Part shown: one piece after another, positions 35,288 to 38,903 of the stretch | Position numbering within the stretch: the stretch's first letter is position 1 | How the letters are laid out: the number at the start of each line of letters is the position of its first letter | NCBI GenBank assembly: GCA_028691535.1 | Contig: JAQUZB010000004.1 | Location: forward strand, 1 to 64,000 | Direction: 5' to 3' | DNA length: 64,000 nucleotides | Source of the DNA: Candidatus Altimarinota bacterium | GTDB lineage: Bacteria > Patescibacteriota > Gracilibacteria > BD1-5 > UBA6164 | Notes under the pieces: model-generated | Databases searched by the model: none | Seen by the model: only the letters and a program-made list of their open reading frames with translations | What the model was told of the DNA's origin: nothing | Program-made: the position numbers and the translations under genes

Positions 35288-37171
<1,884 letters not shown>

Positions 37172-37263
37172 ATTATAAAAATTAAGTTTTAAAAGTTTTT
37201 TAATTGTCATTTTTCCATGACTTGCATATATATTATCAAATTATTTTTTAATGTCAAAACTTT

Positions 37264-37359: not shown

Positions 37360-37488
37360 ATGGATGAAATAAATAAAAAGGAGGAGGAATGAACTTCACT
37401 CCAAGATATGGATTTTTCAAATGAATTTGATAAATATATTCGTGATTTGGAAGATAGAAGAAAAAGAGTTGATGATTTGATAAATTAA
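37360..37488 (+). CDS. 42-residue acidic small protein
   Basis: ATG 37360 to TAA 37486-37488 gives MDEINKKEEEGTSLQDMDFS and then a charged helix NEFDKYIRDLEDRRKRVDDLIN. It uses TGA for its single Gly and has a strong terminator immediately after the stop, both signs of a real native gene. The upstream stretch holds an AT-rich promoter region. No family is recognised. Its short length and charged helix suggest a protein-interaction role, unproven. Confidence 0.5.
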
Positions 37489-37514
37489 AAAGCGTACTTT
37501 ACAGTACGCTTTTT
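37487..37514. terminator. GC-containing bidirectional terminator
   Basis: AAAAAGCGTACT-TTAC-AGTACGCTTTTT has 12-base perfect arms between the 42-residue gene and the convergent immigrant gene. Confidence 0.88.
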
Positions 37515-37533: not shown

Positions 37534-37839
37534 TCAGGCGGGGAAAAGGCTTAATTGTATACCAGCCAGCTCCGCGTCAGCTATTTCTTCTTGTTTCCTT
37601 TTTTCTTCTTCTTTTTTTGTTTTCATTATTGCAATTTTTTCTTGCAAAATTGCAATAATTTGCTTTTTCCTTTCTTGTTGTTCAATCGTCAAATTTGGCA
37701 ATTTACAAAGTTCAGTGAATTCTGTGTATTGACAAGAGGCTTCGCTATCTTCTTTACACAGAGAATCAATATCTCCACCTGGTAATGGAAATGAAAATCC
37801 CCAACCAAATAAAGCTGCTCGTTTTAATCGTCCTGACAT
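37534..37839 (-). CDS. Standard-code immigrant gene, unknown 101-residue protein ending in TGA
   Basis: The frame starts at ATG 37839 behind GGAGG (4-base spacing) and ends at TGA 37534-37536. Its six glycines are all GGA/GGT (none TGA), arginines include CGA, and base composition is richer in GC than the neighbours. This is the opposite of every other gene here. The product has a glycine/proline-rich start (ALFGWGFSFPLPGGDID), three cysteines, and a long charged coil (QEKIAIMKTKKEEEKRKQEE) ending LSLFPA. Under code 25 the TGA would be read through for over 180 bases, across the terminator and antisense to the 42-residue gene. Likely acquired from a bacterium with the standard code; function unknown. 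Whether it is expressed correctly is doubtful. Confidence 0.65.
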   Translation of the reverse strand: MSGRLKRAALFGWGFSFPLPGGDIDSLCKEDSEASCQYTEFTELCKLPNLTIEQQERKKQIIAILQEKIAIMKTKKEEEKRKQEEIADAELAGIQLSLFPA

Positions 37840-37843
37840 ATAG

Positions 37844-37848
37844 CCTCC
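37844..37848 (-). promoter_or_regulatory. Strong Shine-Dalgarno (GGAGG) before the immigrant gene
   Basis: GGAGG stands four bases before ATG 37839. Native genes in the window show only A/T-rich leaders, so this site both fixes the start and marks the gene as foreign. Confidence 0.7.
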
Positions 37849-37991
37849 AAAAGTAAAAAAAGTAATTATTTTATATATTAAAAAAATAAAAAGTCAATTA
37901 TAGATTATATTTTTATTATAACTATTTTTAAAATTGACTTATTTATTATAAATTGTAGAATAAAAAAAATTTAAAATTAGATTTACATATA

Positions 37992-38903
37992 ATGGAAGAA
38001 GATATCATAGAATTTGAACCAACAGAACCGATTATTTTATCTGATGAGGAAAAATATGCTTTAGAATTACTAAATTTACATTTAAGAAGTATAAAAGATA
38101 GAATTACTAGCATACTAGAATTAGAAAGGGAAATGAAAGATATGCTTTCTACGATTGATTGAATTAAATGAAATCCAGAATGTCCAGTTTGTAAAGATAT
38201 AGAATGATTTAGAGAAAAATATAAGTTATTTGTAGATGTGCTTATGAAACAAATTTCTGCTAGGCAAGCAAAAATAGACTTGTTAAAGCAAAAAAATTTT
38301 ACATTAACAAGTGAACAATTAGAGTTAAAAAGAAAAGCCTATAGAGATAAATTAACTGGACTTTATAATAGAGTGGTTATGGATAATGTTATAATTCATA
38401 ATATGAATGAAGCAATTAATCATAATTATAATTTTACTTTATCTATTTTAGATATTGATAATTTTAAGCATGTAAATGATTCATTTGGTCATAAATTTTG
38501 AGATGAAATATTAATAAAATTCGCAAAATTTTTAGAAGATTCAGTTGAAAATTTAAATAAATCAAGATTTGTTAGTGCTAATTATAAAAGATTAAATAAA
38601 GCTACTTTGGCTTTTAGATATTGATGAGAAGAATTTATTATATTATCTATATTATCTTGAACAGAATTAAAAAAATTTTTAGATTGATGTTTATATAGAT
38701 TTTCAAAAATTACACATACTTTTTGAGATGAAAAATTTAATATTACATTTTCTTGAGGAGTAACAGAATTTATATGATGATGACTTGATTCTAGAAATGA
38801 ACATGATTTAGTACATTCAGCAGATTTATTATTATATAAAGCAAAAAAAGCATGAAGGGCTAGAATATTAATGCATGAAAAAAAAGAGTTAGTAAAAGCT
38901 TAA
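37992..38903 (+). CDS. GGDEF-domain diguanylate cyclase-like protein
   Basis: A 303-residue cytosolic protein. The N-terminal 110 residues are helical with a CPVC pair (NPECPVCKDIEG) that might bind metal. Then comes the GGDEF domain: RDKLTGLYNRVVMDNVI, TLSILDIDNFKHVNDSFGHKFGDEIL, and the active loop RYGGEEF, in which both glycines are TGA. GG(D/E)EF with the LDIDNFKxxND metal site predicts cyclic di-GMP synthesis. No I-site RxxD is visible before the loop, so product inhibition may be absent. No PDE or effector lies nearby. Confidence 0.85.

Follow-up and report, generated by a model that had tools for sequence, protein, structure and literature searches.

In this work we analyzed a stretch of 64,000 nucleotides from Candidatus Altimarinota bacterium (assembly GCA_028691535.1, contig JAQUZB010000004.1, positions 1 to 64,000, referred to here as the window), which carries at 37534-37839, on the reverse strand, a gene of 101 codons that appears to be written in the standard genetic code, within a genome that reads UGA as glycine. 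This reading, put forward in the original prediction, is strongly supported, and the gene is one of about ten of its kind, hereafter the class, scattered over the genome of the window (G000, 94% complete). The native gene set reads UGA as glycine and CGG as tryptophan and lacks Shine-Dalgarno (SD) sequences; in contrast, it seems somewhat probable from the sequences that the genes of the class are written for the standard-code ribosomes of a host or prey bacterium.

The gene extends from an ATG to a terminal TGA without any TGA inside, and its coordinates and strand proved exact when rechecked. Its glycines are encoded by three GGA and three GGT codons, two arginines are encoded by CGA, no CGG is present, and its GC content is 36%, versus 23% genome-wide. 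TGA accounts for 75.7% of the glycine codons in 1.26 Mb of G000, and given this share the chance of finding none among six glycines is ~2e-4. The GC content at third codon positions (GC3) is 0.23-0.29, as compared with 0.06-0.14 in highly expressed native genes. An SD site, GGAGG, is located 4 nt before the ATG (37844-37848), preceded on the same strand by a −10-like hexamer TATAAA (37870-37875) and, 16 nt before it, a −35-like hexamer TTGACT (37892-37897); both hexamers, which are consensus matches only, are kept in the five species that carry the gene, and a purine-rich SD-like site is kept in all five copies. At 24 nt past the TGA there is a hairpin followed by a T run that resembles an intrinsic terminator (37486-37509, reverse strand, ΔG ~-9.5 kcal/mol) and is common to this gene and to a small gene convergent with it (37360-37488). 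The first in-frame TAA or TAG is found 183 nt beyond the TGA, and reading the frame with code 25 adds 62 codons that cross the hairpin and run antisense to the small gene. The original prediction had described the composition, the codons, the SD site and the terminal TGA exactly, and its statement that a code-25 reading would run through the terminator is borne out. Its further remark, that every other gene stops at TAA or TAG, has an element of circularity, because under code 25 the calling of ORFs has no way of closing a gene at TGA.

Four further species of the genus have full-length orthologs (L033-L036), with 65-76% protein identity, so that the gene occurs in five of the six species. Locus order is also kept in the five: dnaK, the small convergent gene, the shared terminator, the 101-codon ORF and the flank on the side of a GGDEF-type gene. 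Indels between the orthologs preserve the frame, and at many conserved residues the codons differ at the third position only, which identifies the locus as a gene and rules out an RNA element in its place; Rfam gave only sub-threshold noise on this region. None of the 28 glycines of the five copies is encoded by TGA (22 of these codons lie outside the window copy, and the orthologs are not independent). The CGA at R7 is aligned with CGA and AGA, and the codon at the stop position is TGA in the window and in one other species, TAG in one and TAA in two. The original prediction had looked to close homologs with TGA glycines in other code-25 genomes as contrary evidence; homologs do exist, and none has a TGA glycine.

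Searching 77 genomes of the order, 380 of the phylum, viral contigs and phages yielded no further relative of the protein, and no donor of the gene was found. The protein search that had been proposed recovered the orthologs of the genus; Pfam, NCBIfam, PHROGs, the PDB searched by sequence, and Foldseek gave nothing significant and no fold match. A mostly helical structure is predicted for the protein (mean pLDDT 74, with residues 1-21 poorly modelled). A match of residues 1-23 to Tistrella was judged a chance match to the search pattern. Given same-locus orthologs at this level of identity and no relatives outside the genus, the sequence comparison indicates that the locus is a real, vertically inherited gene and makes recent import or misassembly unlikely. 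In particular, chimerism or contamination at 37.5-37.85 kb, a concern raised in the original prediction, deserves practically no weight: the junctions are shared by five separately assembled genomes, and in G443, a single-contig genome of another genus, class genes lie scattered among native genes.

The native translation system was characterized in the same genomes. Release factor 2 (RF2) was above the cut-off in none of the nine genomes searched, and the match in G000 carries, as read from its sequence, the RF1-type PET motif; this agrees with an earlier report that prfB is missing (PMC6851277). G000 has a UCA-anticodon tRNA, which ARAGORN labels SeC. When orthologs of G000 and G431, a second species of the genus, were aligned, native CGG codons were partnered by TGG 19 times and by CGG 12 times, with no arginine codon among the ten commonest partners, and tRNA-CCG bears A1:U72 and G73, as does tRNA-Trp. 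Since CGG is aligned with TGG and never with a common arginine partner, native CGG is read as tryptophan and the native code departs slightly from table 25; the same reassignment has been predicted for some Gracilibacteria (PMC8629427). CGA represents about 13 of 9,260 native arginine codons, and tRNA-UCG was not found in the 94%-complete G000. An SD 5-mer precedes the first ATG in 0 of 701 native genes, and any start codon within the first 40 codons in 5 of 720. The canonical 3' end of the 16S rRNA is GGATCACCTCCTTA; it is GGACTATCTCCTTA in all 12 loci of the family that were read (L125-L136), which include the genus-mate G432 and stand in for the 16S of G000, absent from its assembly. Absconditabacteria are already on record as a group with scarce SD sites and an altered core (PMC10783764).

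The class was obtained by searching for TGA-free ORFs of high GC3 outside native genes; the SD was not a criterion. Besides the 101-codon gene it includes an NhaD antiporter, a protein of 236 aa beginning with MKNLF, a PgsA-like CDP-alcohol phosphatidyltransferase, an acyl carrier protein (ACP), and proteins of 120, 94, 66, 54 and 51 aa. An SD 5-mer is present in 7 of the 10 genes and at least a 4-mer in 9, and a genome scan for SD, start and ORF recovered largely the same genes and two extra ones. Several members recur in the genus: NhaD and the 66-aa gene in G431, MKNLF in G430, G431 and G433, and ACP in G431. The 15 class sequences of the genus contain 163 glycine codons, none of which is TGA, and nearly all class genes have an SD. 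In the class, CGA accounts for 7 of 55 arginine codons, and GC3 ranges from 0.23 to 0.53. All six TGA-ending class genes of G000 lack an in-frame TAA or TAG before the terminator (the hairpin of the 94-aa gene was read by eye), and the terminal TGA of MKNLF, ACP and the 66-aa gene is kept in every species read. With RF2 absent and the first TAA or TAG past the terminator, native ribosomes translating these genes should run off the mRNA.

Ahead of MKNLF, and in frame with it, there is an AT-rich, glycine-free segment encoding a membrane helix (L038 9290-9463, equivalent to G000:C14:93290-93463), conserved in three species, which may be a native leader or the N-terminal part of MKNLF. A short SD-bearing ORF beginning with MWNY (G000:C17:174089-174280, forward strand), also present in G431, was kept out of the class and may be a structured RNA instead of a gene.

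The tests that we carried out, above all on NhaD, support that the class is held in the standard code by selection. The NhaD genes of G000 and G431 (90% protein identity) differ in 42 of 109 fourfold codons, as compared with a native mean of 0.39, and 15 of 27 conserved glycines have changed codon, none of them to TGA. Among native orthologs the switch from GGN to TGA amounts to 20-23% above 90% protein identity and to 37-46% at 80-90%, which gives p values between 1e-3 and 4e-7 for its absence in NhaD. Because synonymous divergence has reached the native level and yet no switch to TGA has occurred, selection is keeping NhaD standard-coded. As the 101-codon gene has few sites, NhaD and the pooled class carry most of this argument. 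The CGG of NhaD, a possible arginine, sits at a non-conserved position. Near-full-length NhaD copies in the family have either no TGA or 19-28. Both kinds occur in G440, as an NhaD gene with 19 TGA and a second without any (C35:6309-7529 and C28:13325-14608), a pair that offers a side-by-side natural test of the two codes.

These results bear on the proposal, made in the original prediction, that the 101-codon gene is a recent import. In an ordinary recent transfer from standard-code bacteria, the codons, SD and promoter of the donor would not yet be worn down, and all the features observed are indeed those that a donor gene would bring. This is contradicted for the 101-codon gene by its occurrence in five species, at one shared locus and with 65-76% identity, and for NhaD by native-level synonymous divergence without any switch to TGA; in addition, NhaD is only ~33% identical to known plasmid-borne NhaD. 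Horizontally acquired genes in Patescibacteria (PMC12455944) are likewise foreign-looking single genes in reduced genomes, but their codon usage would be expected to approach the native one over time, whereas the genus-wide members of the class have kept theirs. Recent transfer thus fails for these members, and we consider it improbable for the class.

A comparable class is found in G443, of whose 1.34 Mb 800 kb were scanned. In this genome TGA represents about half of the glycine codons (first 400 kb), and 42 genes have at least five glycines and no TGA. An SD, by a lenient rule, precedes 29 of these 42 genes versus 49 of 531 TGA-using genes, and some of the TGA-free genes without an SD are highly expressed native genes, uL1 for example. 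Among the TGA-free genes are purL (0 of 112 glycines TGA), purM, purB, purC-purE, an acyltransferase and lipoprotein-like genes; G449 likewise has a purM without TGA, which is 53% identical. The CGG codons purL 1216 and purB 356 occupy arginine positions of solved homologs, and native CGG in G443 also looks like tryptophan, on fewer sites. Between the standard-coded purL and purM there is a native-coded gene with 16 TGA, PurN-like by appearance (G443:C1:307107-313219).

Alternatively, the class could be carried by mobile elements or phages that move back and forth between hosts of the two codes, 25 and standard, so that its genes have to be readable in both. Phages of Gracilibacteria and Absconditabacteria compatible with code 11 have been described (PMC10746230); like the class they have no in-frame TGA and are readable in cells of either code. 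These are, however, whole genomes that avoid TGA as a stop too, whereas the class consists of chromosomal genes, several ending in TGA, placed singly at conserved loci beside TGA-rich native genes. The 101-aa protein has no relative in phages or viral contigs and its gene is flanked by dnaK and a GGDEF-type gene, and prophages of Gracilibacteria have been described as using code 25. We therefore regard this explanation as very improbable.

If the class is addressed to another cell, we infer that it would be delivered to the host and that its products would be made by host ribosomes. In a more specific version, which we hold tentatively and with slightly less than even confidence, class genes would reach host bacteria in the form of DNA or RNA, and the proteins made there by host ribosomes would benefit the symbiont, a counterpart of T-DNA between two codes. 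Each chromosomal cassette would consist of promoter, SD, coding sequence and terminator, all in the standard genetic code, and native ribosomes would run off those messages that end in TGA. The proteins may act in lipid, ion and purine metabolism or as surface lipoproteins; candidate payloads are ACP and the PgsA-like protein for membrane lipids, NhaD for ions and, in another genus, the purine synthesis proteins. In Agrobacterium, T-DNA carries plant-type expression signals and is moved into plants by the VirB/D4 system. The likeness lies in bacterial genes that bear the expression signals of another cell and are used only after transfer. In contrast, T-DNA is one bordered segment with a known secretion system and a plant recipient, whereas the class is made of single scattered cassettes in which the genetic code itself differs, with a bacterial recipient proposed. 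It is also well known that phages carry host metabolic genes, purine genes among them. The class resembles these in being host-type metabolic genes, including purine genes, of a parasite, but here the carrier is a cellular organism whose own code is different, and the genes are chromosomal. A candidate for delivery would be the VirB4-type secretion system of Patescibacteria, for which a VirB4-like ATPase of this kind has been described (PMC12102498); we found such an ATPase in four genomes, above the family cut-off in G443 only.

Several observations weigh against the view that the class is written for a host. Nucleic-acid export is unsupported, given that the VirD4 coupling protein was not found in G000; promoter hexamers and terminators separate the class from native genes only weakly; and for the class genes of G443, which are numerous and equal to native genes in GC3, recent transfer may be the explanation. 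Other points favour the strongest rival, translation at home under selection for efficiency. According to this alternative the genes are old acquisitions or are built for very strong or stage-specific expression, UGA-glycine was purged as poorly decoded, the SD boosts initiation and the terminal TGA is a tolerated stop loss. Highly expressed native genes are in fact TGA-poor (uL1 3 of 19 glycines, EF-Tu 9 of 40, an S-layer-like protein 1 of 79), so that TGA-poverty alone is no proof of the standard code; the anti-SD of the native ribosome, UCUCC, remains able to pair with AAGGAG; and several class genes are natively translatable, ending in TAA (NhaD, and the 101-codon gene in two species) or TAG. 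Nevertheless, high expression alone is ruled out as the cause by GC3, SD and CGA: highly expressed native genes keep a native GC3 and no SD, and the class contains CGA codons, whose tRNA was not found. Home translation would also turn the transcripts of TGA-ending class genes into non-stop mRNAs, and those of MKNLF, ACP and the 66-aa gene retain the TGA throughout. It accounts for TGA-poverty and not for GC3, CGA, SD and TGA stops together, and we judge it rather unlikely.

If the class is indeed written for host ribosomes, one chromosome would hold two gene sets in two genetic codes, the code marking the proteins meant for another cell. This would provide a sequence-only way of listing what uncultured symbionts give to their hosts, in which codon usage and promoters would hint at the identity of the host, and would allow a direct test of host manipulation. 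Even with home translation, a TGA-free, SD-bearing class needs explaining against native genes with three quarters of their glycines as TGA and no SD, and code-25 annotation mis-ends or misses its members. No description of such a gene class was found in the literature that could be searched (preprints and most subscription papers were beyond reach).

The genes that surround the 101-codon gene are native. The small convergent gene (37360-37488, forward strand) encodes 42 aa beginning with MDEINKKEEEGTSLQDMDF, uses UGA as glycine, has no SD and ends in TAA; it is conserved in the orthologous loci as an antisense block and shares the terminator. On one side, dnaK (35288-37210, reverse strand) has TGA in 24 of 55 glycine codons and no SD, and its start is probably at MGKIIG, near 37171. 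On the other, a gene with 14 TGA codons and no SD (37992-38903, forward strand) encodes a GGDEF-type protein, so named from its GGEEF motif and not from a family search. Elsewhere in G000, the S-layer-like protein mentioned above, a secreted protein of 1096 aa (G000:C16:39897-43187, reverse strand), has native GC3 and presumably very high expression, which would imply strong translational selection against UGA-glycine.
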